Below, in pieces: positions 1-8,049 of a DNA stretch of 10,917 nucleotides. Both the position numbers and the translations under genes were made by a program. The stretch lies in the NCBI GenBank assembly GCA_016291725.1, contig JAEEYJ010000138.1:1-10917 (forward strand). Reading direction: 5' to 3'. The notes under the pieces were generated by a model, which saw nothing but the letters and a program-made list of their open reading frames with translations, was not told the DNA's origin and searched no databases. This stretch comes from Solobacterium sp. Lineage in GTDB: Bacteria; Bacillota_I; Bacilli_A; Erysipelotrichales; Erysipelotrichaceae. The stretch's first letter is position 1. Each line of letters opens with the position of its first letter.

Positions 1-1190
1 AGGATGGTCTGCGCTTTGATGCCGGCACCGAGAGCCTGCTCCGTAAGGGACAGTACCTGTTTGCGCCTGCCCTTGACCAGAGCGTCGCTGATTGCGCTCA
101 GCAGTTCCGTGTTCTGCTGTTCTGCACCGGCGTTTCCGGTCTTTCCGGCCGTCCGGGCACTCCGATTCCTGTGGGGAACGGATGCGGTGAAGAATTTCGG
201 CATGTGCAGTACAGCATTGTACAGATCAATCTCTTCATTGATGATCGGATCTACATGCGGACACACCGTACCGGCCAGTCCGTAGGTGATGCAGGGGATG
301 TAGTGCCCGCCGGGGCAGTTCTCTGCAAGCACCTGTCTGACATAGGTGCGGATTTCTTCTTCGGAAGCGTCCGGACGGTCGATGGCTGCACCGATGCCGC
401 CCATCAGGACCATTCTGCCCTGCAGTTTCTCCTGCAGCGAAGGAATATCATTCTCCGGAAGAGCACCCTGCCATACCTGGATCCCGATCTCCGCCATATC
501 TTCAACAATCGGTACGAGATAGGAGTCCGCGTGGTGGACCGTGATGATTCCGCGATCGCGGATATAGCCGTAGAAGCGGCGGTAAGGCTCCTTGAAGAAT
601 TCACGCCACATATCGGGCTTCATGAACAGGGCATCCTTGGTCCCCCAGTCATCGTGGGTAAAGATGACTTCCGGGTGCAGACGGTCTATCAGCAGACGGA
701 CATAGTTCATCCGGTATTCCGTGATGAAGTCGATCAGTTCATGCAGTTCGTCCGGATACTCATACAGTGCTGTAAGTGTATCTTCAAAGCCCATCAGGAA
801 GTGCAGCTGCTCAAAGATTCCGGTTGCCATGAAGCCGGCAATCAGCTTTTCACCGCCGGCCTTTTCCTTTGCGCCTTCAATGCAGGCTTCCCATCCATCC
901 TGGCAGTTCGCCTCAATATCCGGCGCATGTACATAGTCCCGCCAGTGTTCAATGTCCTTGCATACTTTCAGCTCTTCGGTTGTGACCGGCATCGGTCCCG
1001 GTGCATCGGCGGGGAAATTGATGGTTGTGCCCCAGCGGTCCTTGGATACCGATCCCCTGACTCTGCTTCCGCGCAGATAGCCGTTGATAGGATCCGTCAG
1101 GACCATATGAAGGGCTTCGTACTGTTTCAGCTGACGCTCGGGCTGTCCGCCCGGTTTCAGCAGTTCGAGAAAGATCTCTTTCGGTGTCAT
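1..1190 (-). CDS. URO-D-fold corrinoid methyltransferase fused to a corrinoid-protein cap domain (partial)
   Basis: Minus-strand ORF open from ATG at 1190 to the window edge, about 397 residues visible with no stop. Residues 1-335 look like the uroporphyrinogen-decarboxylase-fold methyltransferases (MtaA/MtbA/CmuA relatives): HDDWGT (179-184), FMKPDMWREF (189-198), VWQG (239-242), MGGI (263-266) and IPCITYG (298-304). A low-complexity linker (about 338-358) follows. Residues 360-397 then read like the helical B12-binding_2 cap that starts corrinoid proteins such as MtaC (TELLSAISDALVKG, then EQALGAGI). This order, methyltransferase then corrinoid module, is that of chloromethane methyltransferase CmuA. 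The expected role is methyl transfer between a small substrate and a cob(I)amide in the cytoplasm; the substrate is unknown. The MtaA-type zinc motif HxCG is replaced by HHAD (219-222), so chemistry may differ. It overlaps the upstream DUF2284 gene by 4 bp, so translation is probably coupled. The cobalamin-binding domain itself lies outside the window. Confidence 0.85.
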   Translation of the reverse strand, partial: MTPKEIFLELLKPGGQPERQLKQYEALHMVLTDPINGYLRGSRVRGSVSKDRWGTTINFPADAPGPMPVTTEELKVCKDIEHWRDYVHAPDIEANCQDGWEACIEGAKEKAGGEKLIAGFMATGIFEQLHFLMGFEDTLTALYEYPDELHELIDFITEYRMNYVRLLIDRLHPEVIFTHDDWGTKDALFMKPDMWREFFKEPYRRFYGYIRDRGIITVHHADSYLVPIVEDMAEIGIQVWQGALPENDIPSLQEKLQGRMVLMGGIGAAIDRPDASEEEIRTYVRQVLAENCPGGHYIPCITYGLAGTVCPHVDPIINEEIDLYNAVLHMPKFFTASVPHRNRSARTAGKTGNAGAEQQNTELLSAISDALVKGRRKQVLSLTEQALGAGIKAQTI

Positions 1191-1732
1191 ACACTGTTAC
1201 CTCGCTTCATCAGTATACAGGAGTCAAATGTCAGGCTCTTCGGCCCGTAATAGTACTTCAGGCCGGATGCTTCGCATACGTCCTTGACCAGAAGACCGTA
1301 GGCTTCCATGGAGGAGTACCGTTTATCCGGAAAGCGGCAGGGGTGATCCGGACAGGTGCACTTTCTGCACAGTGTGCAGGCACCGGCTGTCAGCGGCAGG
1401 CAATTGCCGTGCAGCAGACGGATCTGCCTGGCCAGGGTCAGGAACATGGCCTTGTGCTTCTTTTCGGTTTCCCGGACAGTCTCATAGTCGAATTCATCCT
1501 TCATGGACGCTGTTGTCTGCACCAGAATGCCGCAGTCGTACTGCTTGATGCGCTCAGCACACTGCTGTGTCGTCCCGCACCAGGGCGGGCAGCTCCAGTT
1601 GTTCCCGTACATCCGGCATTTTCCGCTGATGCACATATCCCGGATATCCTCCCGGACGATCAAAGCGTCCATGTTCAGTTCCGAGAAATGAGAAAAACCG
1701 ATTTCACGGGCAAGCTGAAGGATATTGTCCAT
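1187..1732 (-). CDS. DUF2284 cysteine-rich metal-binding protein
   Basis: 181 residues with 12 cysteines. The N-terminal half has C34, C39 and the block YGNNWSCPPWC (42-52). The C-terminal half has a ferredoxin-like cluster of C119, C122, C125, C127 and C132, followed by the PCR-P pattern. This matches the DUF2284 'predicted metal-binding' family, whose function is not established; an iron-sulfur cluster is likely. The start is ATG at 1732-1730 with GGGAGG at 1745-1740 (minus sense), 7 nt away. Its stop overlaps the start of the corrinoid methyltransferase gene (ATGA), so the two are co-translated. It is also divergent from a corrinoid activation protein. Possible roles are electron delivery to, or maturation of, a corrinoid protein; this is inference from context only. 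Confidence 0.8.
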   Translation of the reverse strand: MDNILQLAREIGFSHFSELNMDALIVREDIRDMCISGKCRMYGNNWSCPPWCGTTQQCAERIKQYDCGILVQTTASMKDEFDYETVRETEKKHKAMFLTLARQIRLLHGNCLPLTAGACTLCRKCTCPDHPCRFPDKRYSSMEAYGLLVKDVCEASGLKYYYGPKSLTFDSCILMKRGNSV

Positions 1733-1733
1733 A

Positions 1734-1745
1734 GAGGTACCTCCC
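1734..1745 (-). promoter_or_regulatory. Ribosome binding site of DUF2284 gene inside a 10-bp palindrome
   Basis: GGGAGG (minus sense, 1745-1740) lies 7 nt before the ATG at 1732. It overlaps the perfect palindrome GAGGTACCTC at 1734-1743. The site fixes the start codon. The palindrome could be chance, an operator half, or a small RNA element that limits access to the site. Confidence 0.6.
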
Positions 1746-1815
1746 GGGGTCAGGGTTTTTTCCCTTCACTATTTGAAGTATAATTCTATTCAAGATAAAA
1801 ATATACGTAATAACG
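1746..1815. promoter_or_regulatory. Divergent promoter/operator region between the two corrinoid operons
   Basis: This AT-rich stretch separates divergently transcribed genes. On the plus strand TATAAT lies at 1779-1784 without a convincing -35. An alternative is TTGAAG (1773-1778) with an AT-rich -10-like stretch near 1796-1801. On the minus strand TATACT overlaps the same block. TTGAA (1773-1777) and TTCAA (1789-1793) form an inverted repeat spanning 21 bp over both candidate -10 sites, the place expected for a shared operator. No Shine-Dalgarno sequence is visible before the plus-strand ATG at 1816. Promoter boxes are read by eye and uncertain. Confidence 0.45.
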
Positions 1816-3303
1816 ATGAAAGAACTGTGTGCAGTCATAGATGGTGCAGAAAAAAAACTGAAAGCCGGGAAAGATGAAACCCTGCTGGATGTTTTCCGCC
1901 GGTACGGGATTCCGGTATCGGCACCGTGCGGAGGAAAGGGCACCTGCCGCAAGTGTACGGTCATAGCCGATGGCAAAGAAGTGCTTGCCTGCCGTACACC
2001 GGCAGATGAGGTCAGTACGGTTTCTCTGCGGACGGAAGAAAACAGCCGGCTGCTGTCACAGACGGTTCCGGCACGGGATCATACAGCCAGGAAAGGGACA
2101 GGAGCCGCAGTGGATCTCGGTACGACTTCCATCGCCGTAAAGGTCTACGATCTGGAGAGCGGCAGGGAGCTGGGAAGTGATGCACGCTGGAATGTACAGC
2201 GTGCCTACGGAGCGGATGTCATCAGCCGGATCCAGTATACGCTGGACCATGCAGATGGTCTGCAGCACCTGCAGTCCATCCTTCATGATCAGATCATGGA
2301 CATGGTCGGTACTGTTTCTCCGGAAGTCCGGGAGATGGTCATTGCGGGCAATACCGTTATGGAGCACATCGCTGCGGGAATCTCTCCCGAACCGATCGCT
2401 TCTGCACCATTTATACCTGAAACGCGCTTCCTGGAAGACAGAAACGATACGGTCGGGGGAATCCCGGCATATTACGTACCCTGTGTAGCCGGGTATGTCG
2501 GCGGGGATATCGTCGCTGGTCTGCTGAGCATCGGGGAAGCTGCTGGCAATGCCCTGTTCCTGGATATCGGCACCAATGGTGAAATGGTCCTGATCCACGA
2601 TGGAGGAATGCTTGCCTGCGCTGTTGCCTGCGGTCCGGCGTTTGAAGGCGGCAATATCAGCTGCGGCATGCCGGGCACGGCAGGCGCTGTACAGAAAGCT
2701 GTCATGAAGGATACACTGGAACTGGATGTCATCGGCCGTACTGCAGTGAAGGGCATCTGCGGCAGCGGGCTCATCGATCTCATTGCGGTACTGGTGGAGC
2801 AGGGTGTCATTGATTCCTTCGGCAGGCTGCTGCCTCCCGAGGAAGCACCCTCCGGCTGGCAGGCGTATCTGGAAGAGGATGAAAACGGCAACGGCCGTTT
2901 CCGGATCGACGGGAACGTGTGGCTTACAGCCGGGGATGTACGGCAGGTACAGCTGGCCAAGGCAGCTGTTGCGGCCGGAATCGAGATCCTGCTGGATACA
3001 GCCGGGCTGAAGCCGGAAGAGATCGGTACGGTCATTCTTGCCGGTGGATTCGGCTGTTCCCTGGATCCGGCGAGTGCGGAAGCGATCGGCATGTTCCCGG
3101 AAGGATTTGCCGCAAGGACAAGGACGGTCGGCGATGCCTCCCTCAGCGGTGCCGCAATGACGCTGCTGAAGGAAGACAGCCGGCAGAAACTGCATGAAAT
3201 CGTTGATCAATGCCATTATCTGGAACTGTCGGGACACCCGGCATTCAACCGGATCTATACAGAACATATGCTGTTCGGTGAGGAGGAAGAACTATGGAAC
3301 TGA
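1816..3303 (+). CDS. Compact RACo/RamA-type corrinoid reductive activation protein ([2Fe-2S] + ASKHA)
   Basis: 495 residues. An N-terminal plant-type [2Fe-2S] ferredoxin domain has C38-x5-C44-x2-C47-x11-C59. An ASKHA ATPase domain begins at about residue 97: DLGTTS (100-105), AGNTVMEHIAAG (177-188), LDIGTNGE (249-256), GPAFEG (273-278), GICGSGLID (313-321) and LAGGFG (408-413). This is the RACo family, which uses ATP hydrolysis to drive reduction of inactive Co(II) corrinoid to Co(I). Characterised RACo is about 630 residues, with a linker and middle domain between the ferredoxin and ASKHA parts. Here the two lie only about 35-40 residues apart, so the middle domain appears absent. No ribosome binding site is visible before the ATG, but the ferredoxin beta strand starts directly after it, which supports this start. 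It overlaps the homocysteine methyltransferase gene by 10 bp. The likely client is the fused corrinoid protein transcribed in the opposite direction. Confidence 0.9.
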   Translation: MKELCAVIDGAEKKLKAGKDETLLDVFRRYGIPVSAPCGGKGTCRKCTVIADGKEVLACRTPADEVSTVSLRTEENSRLLSQTVPARDHTARKGTGAAVDLGTTSIAVKVYDLESGRELGSDARWNVQRAYGADVISRIQYTLDHADGLQHLQSILHDQIMDMVGTVSPEVREMVIAGNTVMEHIAAGISPEPIASAPFIPETRFLEDRNDTVGGIPAYYVPCVAGYVGGDIVAGLLSIGEAAGNALFLDIGTNGEMVLIHDGGMLACAVACGPAFEGGNISCGMPGTAGAVQKAVMKDTLELDVIGRTAVKGICGSGLIDLIAVLVEQGVIDSFGRLLPPEEAPSGWQAYLEEDENGNGRFRIDGNVWLTAGDVRQVQLAKAAVAAGIEILLDTAGLKPEEIGTVILAGGFGCSLDPASAEAIGMFPEGFAARTRTVGDASLSGAAMTLLKEDSRQKLHEIVDQCHYLELSGHPAFNRIYTEHMLFGEEEELWN

Positions 3304-4511
3304 AACTGCCGCTGCTGCTGGACGCCGCAACCGGAACGGAACTGCAGAAACACGGAATGCCTGCAGGGGTCTGCTCCGAACAATGGACACTGGAACACCC
3401 GGAAGCCATCGTAGAGATCCAGAAGGGATACATCGAGGCAGGCAGCCGTGCGGTCTATACACCGACCTTCGGTGCCAACCGGGTGAAGCTGGAAGCCAAC
3501 CATATCTTCAATAAAACAACGGAATACAACAAAAAGCTCGCGGCACTGGCCAGAGAAGCTGCCGGTGACAAGGCACTGGTTGCCGGAGATATCGCTCCGA
3601 CAGGACAGTTTCTCTACCCGCTGGGGAATACCACGTTTGAGGAGTTCGTTGAGATCTACACTGAGCAGGCGGCTGCGCTGGAAGAAGCCGGTGTGGACTT
3701 CTTTGTCATTGAAACGATGATGACGGTGGCGGAAGCACGGGCAGCGCTGCTGGCGGTGCGCTCCGTCAGTAAAAAACCGGTATTCGTCTCGTTCACCTGC
3801 GATGAAAACGGAAGAACACTGACCGGCTGCGATGTGACGGCTGTGCTGGAGATCATGCAGGGAATGGGTGCCGATGCGTTCGGATTGAACTGCTCCGTCG
3901 GACCGGATAAAATGGTCACACAGCTGAAGCGGCTGGGGAAAACCGCGAGAGTACCGCTGATTGCCAAGGCCAATGCCGGTATGCCGCAGCTCATCAACGG
4001 GAAGACGGTCTATGACTGTCCGCCGGAAGAATACACAGCCTACGTAGAAGAAATGGCAGAAGCGGGTGTCATGATCTTCGGCGGCTGCTGCGGCACAGAC
4101 GCGTCGCATATCGCTGCGCTGAACGAGAAACTGGCTCATGCTGTGCTGAAGAAGCCGGATCCGGACTATACAGACAGGCTGCCTGCTGCAACGGAGAAGG
4201 AAGTATTCTATCTGGATCCTTCCGCACGCTGGCTGAGTGTTCTGCCGTGTACACCGGAGCTGGAGGACACACTGGAGGATGCACTGGCGGATGAGGGTGA
4301 ACTGGTCGCCATTGCCATCGGCAGTGAAGAGGAGCTGGATACGTTCGCTGACTACCAGTACATGATCACCAAGCCGCTGTGCCTGGTTTGCGAAGACGCA
4401 GATGTCCTGGAAAAGGCACTGCGCCTGTACCAGGGAAGAGCGCTGTACGAAGGGAATCTGCCGGAAGAAGCACTGAAACCCCTGAGTGAAAAGTACGGTC
4501 TGATCTACTGA
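3294..4511 (+). CDS. Homocysteine S-methyltransferase (MetH N-terminal-type) with a degenerate C-terminal extension
   Basis: 405 residues. Residues 1-285 form a homocysteine methyltransferase TIM barrel: LLLDAATGTEL (7-17), YTPTFGANR (55-63), GDIAPTG (98-104), IETMM (139-143), GLNCS (197-201) and GGCCGT (263-268). The Zn ligands are C200, C265 and C266, all present. It should transfer a methyl group, probably from a methyl-corrinoid protein, to homocysteine to give methionine. Residues 290-405 are an extra segment. Its end (ITKPLCLVCEDADVLEKAL, then GRAL) vaguely resembles the later part of the MetH pterin-binding barrel, but it is far too short to be a full domain. No B12-binding or activation domain is present, so it needs partners in trans. 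AGGAGG at 3281-3286 sets the ATG, within the end of the RACo-like gene. The operon ends in a terminator just after the stop. Confidence 0.88.
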   Translation: MELKLPLLLDAATGTELQKHGMPAGVCSEQWTLEHPEAIVEIQKGYIEAGSRAVYTPTFGANRVKLEANHIFNKTTEYNKKLAALAREAAGDKALVAGDIAPTGQFLYPLGNTTFEEFVEIYTEQAAALEEAGVDFFVIETMMTVAEARAALLAVRSVSKKPVFVSFTCDENGRTLTGCDVTAVLEIMQGMGADAFGLNCSVGPDKMVTQLKRLGKTARVPLIAKANAGMPQLINGKTVYDCPPEEYTAYVEEMAEAGVMIFGGCCGTDASHIAALNEKLAHAVLKKPDPDYTDRLPAATEKEVFYLDPSARWLSVLPCTPELEDTLEDALADEGELVAIAIGSEEELDTFADYQYMITKPLCLVCEDADVLEKALRLYQGRALYEGNLPEEALKPLSEKYGLIY

Positions 4512-4550: not shown

Positions 4551-4576
4551 GGAAACAGGAAGAAGAGGTATTGATC

Positions 4577-5374
4577 ATGGCAAAGCTTGTGTGCAATTTT
4601 TATTCGTACGTTCTTAACAGAGCTGTGGATATCACGGTGGTTCTGCCTTCTGTAACCTGCCCGGAATCACTGGGCATGGCGGACTATCCACCCTCCCACG
4701 TGATTCCCGGCAGATTTCCCGTGCTTTATCTGCTGCACGGCTTCGGCAACAACCATGCGCAGTGGACAGGCTATACCAATATCGAGATGTATGCCGAGGA
4801 AAGGCGGATCGCGGTAGTGAATCTGTCGACCGAAAACAAGTCCTATGCCAAAGTGGGCGGGGATGATTTTATGAAGTTCGTATCGGAAGAGCTCCCGGAG
4901 TTCATTCTGAACTACTTCCCTGTTTCGCCGCTTCCGGAAGATACCTATATCGCAGGTCTGTCCATGGGCGGCTACGGTTCCTACCTGCACGCCTTTACCC
5001 ATCCGGAGAAGTACTGTGCAGTCGGTGCGTTCTCGGCGGGGATTGACATCAATCCGCAGGCTCTGGTCTACGGACTGATGAACAATGAACAGAAGATCGA
5101 TCCCGCCTACGATATCCATGCCCTGGCGAAGAAACTGAAGGAAGACGGGAAGACCTTCCCGAAGGTCTACGCATCCTGCGGAGACCAGGACTTCCTGTAC
5201 GCGGCAGACAAAGCGTACGCTGAGGAACTGAAGGAGCTCGGTGCGGATGTCACCTGGACGGAAACGGCAGGCTACGGCCATGAATGGCGTTTCTGGGATG
5301 AACAGGTAGAGAAATTCCTGGACTGGATCCCCCGTACCGATGACTATGCAAAGATGGGGAAGAGATCAGTGTGA
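4577..5374 (+). CDS. Alpha/beta-hydrolase esterase (esterase D / tributyrin esterase type)
   Basis: 265 residues, cytoplasmic, with no signal peptide. The family signature is an N-terminal sheet followed by LYLLHGFGNN (50-59) with the oxyanion-hole HGFG, the nucleophile elbow GLSMGG (127-132) with Ser129, an acid in CGDQD (201-205, Asp203 or more likely Asp205), and a catalytic His235 in GHEW. Length and motifs fit the esterase family that includes S-formylglutathione hydrolase, the tributyrin esterase EstA and CE1 acetylxylan-type esterases. Substrate cannot be told from sequence. The ATG at 4577 is chosen over an in-frame TTG at 4571 because GAAGAGG (4561-4567) is 9 nt from the ATG and only 3 nt from the TTG. 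Its stop overlaps the GTG of the next gene. Confidence 0.87.
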   Translation: MAKLVCNFYSYVLNRAVDITVVLPSVTCPESLGMADYPPSHVIPGRFPVLYLLHGFGNNHAQWTGYTNIEMYAEERRIAVVNLSTENKSYAKVGGDDFMKFVSEELPEFILNYFPVSPLPEDTYIAGLSMGGYGSYLHAFTHPEKYCAVGAFSAGIDINPQALVYGLMNNEQKIDPAYDIHALAKKLKEDGKTFPKVYASCGDQDFLYAADKAYAEELKELGADVTWTETAGYGHEWRFWDEQVEKFLDWIPRTDDYAKMGKRSV

Positions 5375-5946
5375 GATTCCGGATCCTGACAGACAAAGAG
5401 ATTGGCGAAGAGCGTTTCCGTGAATTTGTGGAACTGGATCATACCACCTGGCCGGAAGGGGACCCTGCCTATCTCTCTACGGAATACCTGAAATCCCTGT
5501 ACCCGGATTGCTATGAAGGATTGTTTCTGGCCGTTGATCCGGATACGGACCGGGTTGCCGGATATTTCAACACGGTTTTCACGGATGAAGAGCACTTCCG
5601 GAAGTATATGAACGGATCATTTACGGATCTGGCGCCGGCAGCAAAGGCTAAGGGACAGCCGATGATCCTGTACCTGTATGCAGCAAACCTGTATCCGCAG
5701 TACAGAGGTACACCCTGCATGAAGGAACTGGGGGCTGCGTTCGCAGCGTGGCTGGATGAGCTGGAAGAGGCCGGATACCGGTTTGATGATGTATGGTGCG
5801 AGACAGTGAGCGCAGACGGCGCACGTACAGCGTCGAAGGGATTCGGAATGAAGCCGGTGGATACAGATGAGAACGGATTCGGTCATTGGTACGAGGGTGA
5901 TGCGCTCCGTTCGTACCGCAGAAAGATGAGGGAACAGGCACTATGA
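5371..5946 (+). CDS. GNAT-like N-acetyltransferase family protein
   Basis: 191 residues starting at GTG, overlapping the esterase stop (GTGA). The C-terminal half looks like a GNAT fold. A beta strand ILYLYAANLY (99-108) leads into QYRGTP (110-115), which resembles the acetyl-CoA pyrophosphate-binding turn (Q/RxxGxG/A). The following helix runs to about 134, and a later strand ends in ASKGFGM (154-160), where GNATs often have an aromatic residue in 'GF'. The turn is not a perfect match and the N-terminal half is not recognisable, so the acceptor substrate is unknown. It is the middle gene of a three-gene coupled operon, between an esterase and an iron-sulfur protein. It ends in an ATGA overlap with the next start. 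Confidence 0.6.
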   Translation: MRFRILTDKEIGEERFREFVELDHTTWPEGDPAYLSTEYLKSLYPDCYEGLFLAVDPDTDRVAGYFNTVFTDEEHFRKYMNGSFTDLAPAAKAKGQPMILYLYAANLYPQYRGTPCMKELGAAFAAWLDELEEAGYRFDDVWCETVSADGARTASKGFGMKPVDTDENGFGHWYEGDALRSYRRKMREQAL

Positions 5947-6773
5947 ACAACAGGGATGTCCTTGATTATGTGCAGAAAGCCTACAGAGAACTGACGAACA
6001 ACAGTGTGCATCTCCCGCAGGAGAACGTGGATATTGCCGTTCTGGATGAGCCGTTGATCGGCTTTGCGTCTGCGGATGATCCCATCTATGAGACATGTAA
6101 AAGACCGGAAGTAATCGGCCCGGAGTGGATGGCGCCGCGGGAGTGGATGGAGGACGCACATACAGTCATTACGCTGTTCTATCCGCGCGCAGAAGGGATC
6201 CGGACCCGTCTGGCAGAGGATCCGGGACCGGTAGTGGAGGCAGCGGAGCTTGGTTTTGCCCAGGCGGAAAAATGCGCCGCAAAGATTACGGCATCCCTGG
6301 GCGCCGAACTGGAAAGCCATGGCATCAAGGTCTGCAGTCCGGGACGGGATCCTCGTTCCGACATGAAGACAACCCCGTTCATGAACGGAGAAGAGCAGGA
6401 CCTGCACTTCTGCCCGACCTGGTCCGACAAGCACGCAGCCTATGCCTGCGGTCTCGGTACATTCGGACTGCACCGGCATATCATTACGGAGAAGGGATGC
6501 TGCGGTACGCTCGCTTCCTTTATCACCGATCATGAATTCGATCCCTCGCCCCGTCCCTATACAGGCGTCTATGACAACTGCATCATGTGCGGTGCCTGTG
6601 TCCGGCGCTGCCCGGCCGGAGCGATCACGATGGAGCATTCCCGCAATCTGCTGAAATGCATCCAGTACGGCGATGAACTGGAGAAACTGGGCGGCGGGGA
6701 ATGTGCCCGCTGTATGGCCGGGGTGCCCTGTGAACACAGGAACCCTGCAGCAAAGGAAAAAGCACCGGTCTGA
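5943..6773 (+). CDS. QueG-like (epoxyqueuosine-reductase-related) double [4Fe-4S] protein, short form
   Basis: 276 residues. TWSDKHAAYACGLGTFG (159-175), then IITEKG (180-185), match the segment before the ferredoxin domain in QueG-type proteins (a W-S-x4-A pattern and then GLG). A ferredoxin-type domain follows with C213, C216, C219 and C223-P, then C239, C254, C257 and C263, enough for two [4Fe-4S] clusters. QueG itself is a cobalamin-dependent reductase of about 350-390 residues related to reductive dehalogenases. This protein lacks QueG's C-terminal HEAT-like extension and is clearly not QueG proper. Function is unknown: a reductase or an electron-transfer partner, possibly corrinoid-binding given the neighbourhood. 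ATG overlaps the GNAT stop (ATGA); GAGGGA at 5928-5933 is 9 nt upstream. The stop codon sits in the loop of the terminator. Confidence 0.78.
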   Translation: MNNRDVLDYVQKAYRELTNNSVHLPQENVDIAVLDEPLIGFASADDPIYETCKRPEVIGPEWMAPREWMEDAHTVITLFYPRAEGIRTRLAEDPGPVVEAAELGFAQAEKCAAKITASLGAELESHGIKVCSPGRDPRSDMKTTPFMNGEEQDLHFCPTWSDKHAAYACGLGTFGLHRHIITEKGCCGTLASFITDHEFDPSPRPYTGVYDNCIMCGACVRRCPAGAITMEHSRNLLKCIQYGDELEKLGGGECARCMAGVPCEHRNPAAKEKAPV

Positions 6774-6787
6774 TGACCGGTGCTTTT
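6758..6787. terminator. Bidirectional rho-independent terminator shared by convergent operons
   Basis: A perfect 13-bp inverted repeat, AAAAGCACCGGTC (6758-6770) and GACCGGTGCTTTT (6775-6787), with a 4-nt loop. It gives a T-tract in both directions. The plus-strand stop TGA (6771-6773) is in the loop. The minus-strand stop (6786-6788) overlaps the right arm. Confidence 0.93.
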
Positions 6788-7292
6788 AGACAGACAGATT
6801 GATGTGTTCCAGCGCACCGGTCAAAGGCCGGTAAAGCAGAAAGCACAGGATGAAATTTGCGGCACAGTGGACAAGGTCGTAGGGAATGCCGGCAATCCAC
6901 CAGGCAACAGCTGCCTGCCAGCCGCCCAGAACCAGGGTTGTCAGGGAGCACATGGCTCCGAAGAACAGTCCGTAGAAAGCAGCCAGGATACTCCAGAACA
7001 GGACAGTGTCCTGTTTTCTGAACAGCGCGGCGAGCAGTACCAGGATGGGCCAGACATAGAAGTAGGTTGCAGTCCAGATGCTCAGGCCCCACCACAGGGT
7101 TTCCAGCAAAGTGAACAGCAGAACGACTGCCATCATCAGCCTGCCGCCGTATTTGCGGGTCAGGACAATCACCAGCAGGGTGATCAGTTCCACATTGGCA
7201 ATGGCATTCAGAGCAAACTTCGCTGTTTCCAGCAAGGCTGTCAGCAGAGCGATCAGGACCAGACGCCGTATCAGCCGTCCGGTGTCCGTCAT
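6786..7292 (-). CDS. ECF transporter S component, probably for cobalamin or a corrinoid
   Basis: 168 residues, very hydrophobic, with about five to six membrane segments. Segments lie near 8-28, 33-46, 53-70, 74-90, 98-125 and 140-155 by eye. The pattern NAIANVELITLLVIVLTRKYG (29-49), YVWPILVLLA near 80-88, FGAMCSL and WWIAGIPYDLVHCAANF (130-146) is typical of vitamin S components of energy-coupling factor transporters. These capture a vitamin and use a shared EcfA/A'/T module encoded elsewhere. Start ATG at 7292 is 6 nt past the DUF4430 stop, with no strong ribosome binding site, so translation is probably coupled. Substrate is inferred from the cobalamin riboswitch and the DUF4430 partner, not from the S component sequence itself. 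No EcfA or EcfT genes are in the window. Confidence 0.85.
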   Translation of the reverse strand: MTDTGRLIRRLVLIALLTALLETAKFALNAIANVELITLLVIVLTRKYGGRLMMAVVLLFTLLETLWWGLSIWTATYFYVWPILVLLAALFRKQDTVLFWSILAAFYGLFFGAMCSLTTLVLGGWQAAVAWWIAGIPYDLVHCAANFILCFLLYRPLTGALEHINLSV

Positions 7293-7298
7293 GCCGGC

Positions 7299-7715
7299 TT
7301 ACCAGGAAGAGATTTCGTAAGCCAGCCGGTATACATCACCGTCCGTGACCGGCTGCTGGTCGGCACCGTACTGACCGTAGTCACCGTTGACGTAGATGGC
7401 CCAGTAGGCATTGTCCTCTTCGTAGACTGCCTTCAGTCCGTTGACCGATTCGATGAAGAAGCCGTATTCACCATCGCTGCCGTCAAAGGTAAAATCCGTC
7501 CCGGCAGCCAGTTCGTCCATCGCACCTTTGAGGTACTCAGCATCGGTTGCGAGTTCGTAGGATGTGACCTTTTCCTCTTTGTCCACGACTTCGATGGTAA
7601 TGTGCTTGGCGCCTTCCGCAGTCTTCGGTTTTGTGAACCTGAATACACCGTAGAGTACAGCGGCGCATGCGAGCAGTGCAATGAGCCCGTAAAGCAGTTT
7701 GTTTGTTTTCTTCAT
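7299..7715 (-). CDS. DUF4430 (transcobalamin C-terminal-like) membrane-anchored protein
   Basis: 138 residues. KK at 2-3 and a hydrophobic segment at about 8-26 make an N-terminal anchor, with the rest outside the cell. LLAC at 14-17 also loosely fits a lipobox, but the hydrophobic run continues past the Cys, so a transmembrane anchor is likelier. Residues 38-138 are a DUF4430 domain: YLKGAMDEL (61-69), FFIESVNGL (86-94), YWAIYVNG (104-111), then the VTDGDVYRLAYE block (123-134). The same fold forms the C-terminal domain of transcobalamin and intrinsic factor. With a cobalamin riboswitch upstream and an ECF S component downstream, capture of corrinoid at the cell surface is the best guess. 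The start is ATG 7715 with GGAGGG at 7725-7720 (minus sense). A longer in-frame ORF from 7784 would run through the riboswitch expression platform. Confidence 0.85.
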   Translation of the reverse strand: MKKTNKLLYGLIALLACAAVLYGVFRFTKPKTAEGAKHITIEVVDKEEKVTSYELATDAEYLKGAMDELAAGTDFTFDGSDGEYGFFIESVNGLKAVYEEDNAYWAIYVNGDYGQYGADQQPVTDGDVYRLAYEISSW

Positions 7716-7831
7716 AATGCCCTCCAGAAGAAAATCCATGGGGAACCATGGACCGTCTGCACTGCAGGAACATACTGAAAACACGTTCCTGGATGAACAG
7801 TGATTGCCGGTGCCCGCGGTTCACGTCCGGG
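7716..7831 (-). promoter_or_regulatory. Riboswitch expression platform and leader
   Basis: Between the aptamer and the DUF4430 start. In minus sense, one hairpin pairs CAGGAAC (7791-7785) with GTTCCTG (7771-7765). A second pairs TCCATGG (7752-7746) with CCATGGA (7741-7735), loop TTCC, followed by TTTT (7734-7731), a short terminator-like T-run. The Shine-Dalgarno GGAGGG is at 7725-7720. An 8-nt segment overlapping it (TCTTCTGG, 7731-7724) is complementary to the B12 box. Whether control is by termination or translation cannot be decided by eye. Confidence 0.6.
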
Positions 7832-7993
7832 TACAGGCAGGTCTTCTGGCTCACGGTACCGTATCTGCGCCTTCTCGGTTACCCAATGGCATACTGCAGA
7901 GACATCCGTATACAGCGGCGGACCCGCACAGGATTTTCACCTGTTTCCCTTTTCAGGATGACCGGCAGACAGTGTCTGCTCATCCCACCTGTA
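7832..7993 (-). promoter_or_regulatory. Cobalamin riboswitch aptamer
   Basis: Read on the minus strand the conserved core appears in order. P1 pairs TACAGG (7993-7988) with CCTGTA (7837-7832). A GGATG/CATCC arm (7985-7981 with 7960-7956) is capped by the GCAGAC/GTCTGC hairpin. Then come AAAAGGGAAA (7953-7944), GGTGAAAATCC (7941-7931), GCGGGTCCGCCGCTGT (7927-7912), a TGCCATTGGG segment, and the B12 box AGCCAGAAGACCTGCCT (about 7852-7836). It should bind adenosylcobalamin or a related corrinoid and normally reduces downstream expression. It controls the DUF4430/ECF S component operon. Confidence 0.95.
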
Positions 7994-8049
7994 TCCTTCC
8001 TGGATATTCCTACATATCGTAACGCAGAAACGGAACGGAGAAAAGCGGG

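Follow-up and report, generated by a model that had tools for sequence, protein, structure and literature searches.

A four-gene cluster in Solobacterium and other gut Firmicutes is a candidate folate-independent methionine synthase related to MetH

Introduction

MesA–MesD are folate-independent "core" methionine synthases related to MetE, and MesA–C are predicted to draw their methyl group from corrinoid proteins (Price et al. 2021, PMC7857596). Two further systems place parts of methionine synthesis on separate proteins or partners: RamA-like DUF4445 proteins reactivate MetH that has no activation domain, as inferred from mutant fitness (PMC5764234), and the Mtg system of Ruegeria (MtgBCDE) shares its corrinoid protein with a demethylase (PMC12478193). 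Here we describe a four-gene cluster at positions 3–4511 of a 10,917-nucleotide stretch of Solobacterium sp. DNA (the window; contig JAEEYJ010000138.1 of assembly GCA_016291725.1), which probably encodes a methionine synthase split over several proteins that depends on a corrinoid but not on folate, and that is related to MetH and not derived from MetE.

Results

Organization of the gene cluster

The cluster consists of two divergent gene pairs, with the genes overlapping within each pair. DUF2284 is paired with a fusion of a URO-D family methyltransferase to a corrinoid domain, and a RACo-like activase is paired with a homocysteine S-methyltransferase (HMT). The features are as follows.

3..1190, minus strand: URO-D methyltransferase (predicted methyltransferase I, MT1), the N-terminal 396 residues of the corrinoid fusion (PF01208, 67 bits)
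1187..1732, minus strand: DUF2284 protein (PF10050, 155.7 bits), overlapping the fusion gene by 4 nt
1733..1815, no strand: divergent intergenic region (from the sequence)
1816..3303, plus strand: predicted RACo/AcsV-like corrinoid reductive activase, Fer2 + Raco_middle + RACo_C_ter (PF14574, PF17651, PF00111)
3294..4511, plus strand: HMT of 405 aa (PF02574, S-methyl_trans, 242 bits), overlapping the RACo gene by 10 nt
4353..4508, plus strand: C-terminal stub of the HMT, homologous to part of the pterin (folate) barrel of MetH (hhalign)

Pfam searches place all four genes where the initial annotation had put its two divergent pairs, and agree with it that the HMT has no B12 domain; the neighbourhood that it had counted as five genes contains four. 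An Rfam scan of window positions 1500–2000, which span the divergent intergenic region, gave no known riboswitch or T-box.

The window is one contig (C170) of a 1.67-Mb metagenome-assembled genome (MAG; G000) that is 81% complete, and the fusion gene is truncated by the contig end. Its remainder lies on a second contig of the same genome (C142; L035:1-897), which shares 353 nt with window positions 1–353 (L035:1-353), 7 of them mismatched, and completes the protein with ~181 residues that include a PF02310 domain. As an intact 577-aa protein from Solobacterium sp. (P0005) is 95% identical to the window part of the fusion, we read the cut as an assembly break. The mismatches between the two contig ends look like a break caused by strain variation. 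Full-length relatives of the fusion carry PF02607 and PF02310, with the order PF01208+PF02607+PF02310 in L034, and the fusion protein is the sole PF02310 match in G000. The corrinoid cap that had been proposed beside the methyltransferase is therefore seen in the full protein and its relatives; Pfam does not call it in the window part, because the protein is cut there.

The HMT keeps a predicted homocysteine site and only a remnant of the folate barrel

The best PDB match of the HMT is Thermotoga maritima MetH (1q7m, E 4e-63), aligned over residues 6–281. Cys200, Cys265 and Cys266, together with the motifs D[GA]A.GT, ET and NAG.P, are invariant in 22 of 22 HMTs and align to the T. maritima enzyme; we take the three cysteines to be zinc ligands, and the cysteines and motifs together to form the homocysteine site. 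The protein is nevertheless not a complete MetH, as it scores 176.5 bits against TIGR02082 (the fusion scores 142 bits) for a cut-off of 1010.85.

The last ~50 residues of the HMT match 25 MetH proteins of the genus and order (hhalign probability 93%, E 2.8e-7, 52 columns), give a weak second stretch to 1q7m (11.7 bits) and have a BLAST match to the MetH of L007. In place of the MetH barrel motifs IDSS and INSV, this stub reads VCED and YEG. As no more of the barrel is present, we infer that the HMT is unable to bind methyl-tetrahydrofolate (methyl-THF). A profile of the whole HMT gave no useful match to the one sequence of methyl-THF:corrinoid methyltransferase (MeTr) with which it was compared.

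A phylogenetic tree groups the cluster HMTs in one clade with 19 short Oscillospirales HMTs that also carry the stub, apart from the 25 MetH proteins (support 100/100). Since the stub is common to this wider family, the loss of the barrel predates the cluster, and recent decay of the stub inside the cluster was rejected. The wider family was drawn from an order-wide sample of 297 genomes in which, among the matches listed, only G105, G090 and G377 exceed 600 bits. It includes HMTs of ~400–420 aa with the same stub at L121–L139 (e.g. L128:7890-9110), several in genomes with a full MetH. An apparent argS gene, recognized by eye, adjoins in 7 of 12 inspected short-HMT loci and nrdD in two, and an apparent CRISPR-like repeat array, seen in translations only, lies just upstream of the short HMT at L120:6069-7345.

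A URO-D methyltransferase is fused to a demethylase-like corrinoid domain

In the URO-D part, all 22 aligned fusions share H179-D180-D181, H219, H220, D222 and Y303, and the same residues are invariant in 18 of 18 rows of an alignment that includes 11 lone relatives. A weak alignment to MtaA (4ay7, E 7e-4) puts His220 at a ligand histidine and Asp222 at a ligand cysteine, with the zinc-ligand positions of 4ay7 being those that we assume. The His-Cys-Cys zinc site of S- and Se-methyltransferases (PMC10418091) is thus not reproduced in this alignment, and identity as an MtaA-type thiol methyltransferase was rejected because an aspartate replaces the cysteine. A further PDB search gave eight weak matches, namely designed proteins, MtaA, UroD and a MukB chain. 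The fusion had been called CmuA-like in the initial annotation. This description fits its architecture, given the domain order that we take CmuA to have, and fails for its sequence, since the URO-D part scores 33.1 and 37.5 bits against the MtaA/CmuA model (TIGR01463; cut-off 235.4), so membership of the CmuA family was rejected.

The corrinoid domain scores 215 bits against 1y80, 173 against 7xcn and 128 against MetH in the PDB, and the fusion scores 202 bits against the MtgC model and 142 against metH, both below cut-off. By these scores, it is nearer to methylamine- and demethylase-type corrinoid proteins than to MetH. The activase scores 307 bits against the AcsV model (NF040756), below its cut-off of 800. 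DUF2284 has seven cysteines that are invariant in an alignment of 19 homologues, from which L085 was left out, and these suggest a metal centre; its only two PDB matches (E 0.9 and 1.6) are not credible.

The cluster recurs in related genomes

Searches with 22 fusions as query yielded 99 related genome loci, of which the best 80 were analyzed (among proteins, 120 of 1982 homologues were listed). In 67 of these 80, either the fusion is present or the sequence breaks off directly behind URO-D; the other 13 have a lone URO-D. An HMT was found in 59 of the 67 fused loci, and in the other eight the sequence ends no more than 2.1 kb upstream of the fusion. Where at least 4.2 kb of sequence is available on both sides (46 full-flank loci, a selection separate from the genome set below), every locus has the HMT less than 3.3 kb from the fusion (largest gap 3.2 kb), DUF2284 lies at most 0.2 kb from it in 44 and RACo is present in 29. 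The conservation of the neighbourhood that the initial annotation had asked about is thus found across relatives, in dozens of loci and far in excess of chance. The HMT is divergent from the fusion in 49 of the 59 loci and co-directional in 10, so the link has survived rearrangement. Pairwise distances of URO-D and HMT are correlated (Mantel r 0.85 over 56 loci, with 0 of 999 permutations as high), which is explained equally well by joint inheritance and by function. A survey of neighbouring families found no further family common to more than 10 of the 80 loci.

Hosts of the cluster include Solobacterium, MAGs of Oscillospiraceae/Ruminococcaceae, Mogibacterium and Oscillibacter sp. ER4. In the HMT tree, three Solobacterium copies join Oscillospiraceae copies (100/91) inside a larger Oscillospiraceae clade of moderate support (92/85), and this nesting suggests that the cluster reached Solobacterium by horizontal transfer.

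Most hosts have neither MetE nor a full MetH

We searched G000, G029 and 46 of the 67 fused-locus genomes; the 46 were hand-picked, in most cases because their contigs were longer, and the other 21 were set aside. The 48 cluster genomes considered here are G000, G019, G020, G029 and G062–G105, with G060 and G061 being the same as G020 and G019 by contig and coordinates. MetE (PF01717) was found in none of the 48, and an enzyme of the MetE/Mes family was rejected on this ground. A methylenetetrahydrofolate reductase (MTHFR) domain is present in five, and these are exactly the five with a long MetH of 775–846 aa (G070, G077, G082, G085 and G091); in four of them it lies in a 626–638-aa frame with a second HMT domain, and in G077 in a partial frame at a contig end. 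The remaining 43 genomes have neither a full MetH nor MTHFR; the initial annotation had asked whether metE and full-length metH are lacking.

For comparison, we examined 60 genomes of the window's genus and order, including G000. Long MetH is present in 35, all with MTHFR (the match contains a stop in G048 and G058, and is of the fused kind in G046). The four cluster genomes in this set (G000, G019, G020 and G029) have neither protein, and both long MetH and the cluster are absent from the remaining 21, one of which (G016) shows a partial MTHFR where a contig ends. Loss of methionine synthase is therefore common in the genus, and the cluster marks a few members that kept or gained one.

Pterin_bind (PF00809) exceeds its cut-off in seven of the 48 cluster genomes, i.e. 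the five with MetH, G063 with a 277-aa frame of the size of dihydropteroate synthase and G101 with a 265-aa frame; G000 has no match. In the other 41 no protein, not even a dihydropteroate synthase, exceeds the PF00809 cut-off, so they appear to depend on outside folate. The need for folate uptake leaves room for a folate-dependent split MetH whose methyl-THF is imported, or whose corrinoid is loaded by an unseen MeTr, and the split MetH of Phaeobacter and Ruegeria does need a separate pterin protein (PMC5764234, PMC12478193). We consider this highly improbable, as a pterin-binding domain occurs in so few hosts, MTHFR is absent from 43 of 48, and imported folate is unlikely to serve as a stoichiometric source of methyl groups. 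The initial annotation had proposed a split route to methionine that is not fed by methyl-THF; contradicting genomic results were sought and not found, in keeping with the folate-independent route predicted here.

Homocysteine supply and alternative functions

Of the 48 cluster genomes, 13 encode MetA, 12 LuxS and 14 a MetY over cut-off, and 11 have both MetA and MetY. Seven genomes with both enzymes have no MetE, long MetH or MTHFR (G081, G083, G087, G089, G100, G101 and G103), so nothing but the cluster is visible there as a B12-type last step of methionine synthesis; G089 also has a 334-aa HMT, and G101 the 265-aa PF00809 frame. MetA, LuxS and MetY over cut-off are all missing from 24 of the 48, including G000, in a search that did not cover S-adenosylhomocysteine hydrolase or MetX.

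This gap would suit an HMT that methylates another thiol, such as sulfide or methanethiol, with a product other than methionine, and some anaerobes convert methoxyl groups to methanethiol. The conservation of the three cysteines and the motifs D[GA]A.GT, ET and NAG.P in 22 of 22 HMTs, aligned to T. maritima MetH, speaks against such an acceptor, as do the seven hosts in which MetA and MetY occur without MetE, long MetH or MTHFR, and we regard it as quite unlikely.

The cluster might instead be a catabolic or detoxifying demethylase that strips a dietary methyl compound, with homocysteine merely as the methyl sink. The same 24 hosts could be read in this way, five hosts also keep MetH, and one of the 13 loci with a lone URO-D has a catabolic-looking gene set. 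In this locus (L104:7493-17996), MFS_2, the lone URO-D, an arylamine N-acetyltransferase, an old yellow enzyme homologue (OYE), MTHFR, FolD, MeTr and a corrinoid protein are encoded; the URO-D is 55–56% identical to the fusions and has the same invariant residues, and the whole appears to be a methyl-capturing route that ends on folate. However, the fused clusters have no widely conserved transporter or ring-modifying gene nearby, 43 of the 48 cluster genomes have neither MetH nor MTHFR, and homocysteine would be a poor sink for methyl groups in bulk. A demethylase of this kind is therefore unlikely, if the least improbable of the alternatives, and a methionine synthase remains the preferred reading. 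The N-acetyltransferase family recurs in five loci, four of them near a lone URO-D.

Other features of the window

Further along the window, a cobalamin riboswitch lies upstream of two more genes.

7819..8007, minus strand: cobalamin riboswitch (RF00174, 100.8 bits)
7299-7784, minus strand: DUF4430 protein, downstream of the riboswitch
6786-7292, minus strand: small protein with no Pfam match, also downstream of the riboswitch

The DUF4430 protein and the small protein are possibly a corrinoid uptake pair, and this locus may help to supply the cofactor, if it is linked to the four-gene cluster. Cobalamin riboswitches were found in L032, L070 and L071 too. A QueG-like 4Fe-4S protein is encoded at 5943–6773 on the plus strand (TIGR00276, 28.6 bits, cut-off 200), and close matches of this protein and of the esterase at 4571–5374 adjoin the cluster in L032.

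Discussion

The domains, the conserved neighbourhood, the missing folate half and the fact that almost none of the searched hosts has MetE or MTHFR can be read directly from the genomes, and together they outline a probable mechanism. The URO-D domain, as MT1, would move the methyl group of a donor onto Co(I) in the corrinoid domain to which it is fused. From methyl-Co(III), the HMT would then pass the methyl group to homocysteine held on zinc, giving methionine. RACo would re-reduce Co(II) that arises from accidental oxidation, with DUF2284 as a possible Fe-S partner. The direction of transfer, homocysteine as the acceptor and the roles of RACo and DUF2284 here are what we infer from these proteins, and for the methyl donor our guess is O-methyl compounds such as aryl methyl ethers.

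Several observations weigh against this reading. Homocysteine supply is unexplained in the 24 of 48 hosts with none of MetA, LuxS and MetY over cut-off, and 17 of the 46 full-flank loci have no RACo. No widely conserved transporter, substrate gene or ring-modifying gene lies near the fused clusters, so none names the donor, and no S-adenosylmethionine riboswitch or T-box reached the Rfam gathering threshold in 23 loci and the window. G019, G020, G029 and G089 encode an HMT of ~330–370 aa, presumably MmuM-like from its length, that could provide another route. The lone URO-D of L104, next to a corrinoid protein, MeTr, MTHFR and FolD, would favour a methyl-capturing role for the domain, but none of the other 12 lone loci has a corrinoid gene, and these include L101–L103, which are slightly closer relatives. 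The pairing of HMT and fusion also has limits on the side of the HMT: all 20 short-HMT loci fetched from the order-wide sample have no fusion nearby, and several are in MetH genomes. An exception lies even inside the clade of cluster HMTs, where L120 (G377) encodes a short HMT that is 61% identical; its 19 kb of sequence contain neither URO-D nor a corrinoid gene, and the genome encodes a 788-aa MetH at another locus.

With these points taken into account, the cluster is still a strong candidate for a new form of methionine synthase that works without folate. No published description of it was found in a literature search that covered few subscription-journal papers. More tentatively, and with some doubt, we propose that the cluster adds a fifth class, derived from MetH, to the folate-independent methionine synthases. 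In this class an O-methyl demethylase would be wired directly to homocysteine; it would serve gut and rumen Firmicutes without MetF, MetE or MetH with environmental methyl groups, and would have reached new hosts such as Solobacterium by gene transfer. From its genome, a bacterium with none of MetE, MetH and MetF would be predicted to be a methionine auxotroph; if the cluster works as proposed, many rumen and gut species have been misjudged, methyl groups pass from the donor through B12 straight to methionine in a so far unmapped stream, and folate-independent methionine synthesis reaches beyond the MetE-type MesA–D families.

Comparison with known systems

The cluster resembles MetH (of the T. 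maritima 1q7m type, or the ~800-aa MetH of congeners) in its HMT domain, cysteines and motifs, in the use of a corrinoid cap and B12 domain as the methyl carrier, and in the part of the pterin barrel that is left. It differs in that no full pterin barrel or activation domain is seen, the HMT and corrinoid domains are on separate proteins, the corrinoid domain is demethylase-like, a URO-D domain has been added, and the hosts are mostly without MTHFR. The split MetH systems of Phaeobacter (PMC5764234) and Ruegeria (MtgBCDE, PMC12478193) share with it a separate HMT, a corrinoid protein and a RACo-like activator. As described there, however, these systems need a pterin protein to make methionine, whereas the cluster has none and its predicted MT1 is a URO-D domain fused to the corrinoid domain.

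On the side of the methyl donor, the O-demethylase Mto (PMC8630106) and the chloromethane system Cdm (PMC13222342) are reported to combine an MT1 of the URO-D superfamily, a corrinoid protein and a reductive activase. The cluster has this same set, with RACo in 29 of the 46 full-flank loci, but its MT1 and corrinoid protein are fused, and its predicted acceptor is homocysteine, while the acceptor in Mto and Cdm is given as THF or tetrahydromethanopterin. A methyltransferase II (MeTr) that would pass the methyl group to THF was found neither among the four genes nor among the conserved neighbours, and the solved structures gave no match to MT1 proteins of O-demethylase or chloromethane systems beyond that to MtaA, which is weak. 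CmuA likewise joins MT1 and corrinoid functions in one protein (PMC13222342); the fusion is far below the MtaA/CmuA cut-off, and the cluster has no CmuB-like folate acceptor.

MesA–D make methionine from homocysteine without methyl-THF, and the cluster is predicted to do likewise; MTHFR is absent from 43 of the 48 hosts here. The available text of PMC7857596 does not mention uroporphyrinogen, DUF4445 or Oscillibacter. While MesA–D are related to MetE, whose domain (PF01717) occurs in 0 of the 48 hosts, the cluster is related to MetH and brings with it its own corrinoid protein and a predicted MT1.

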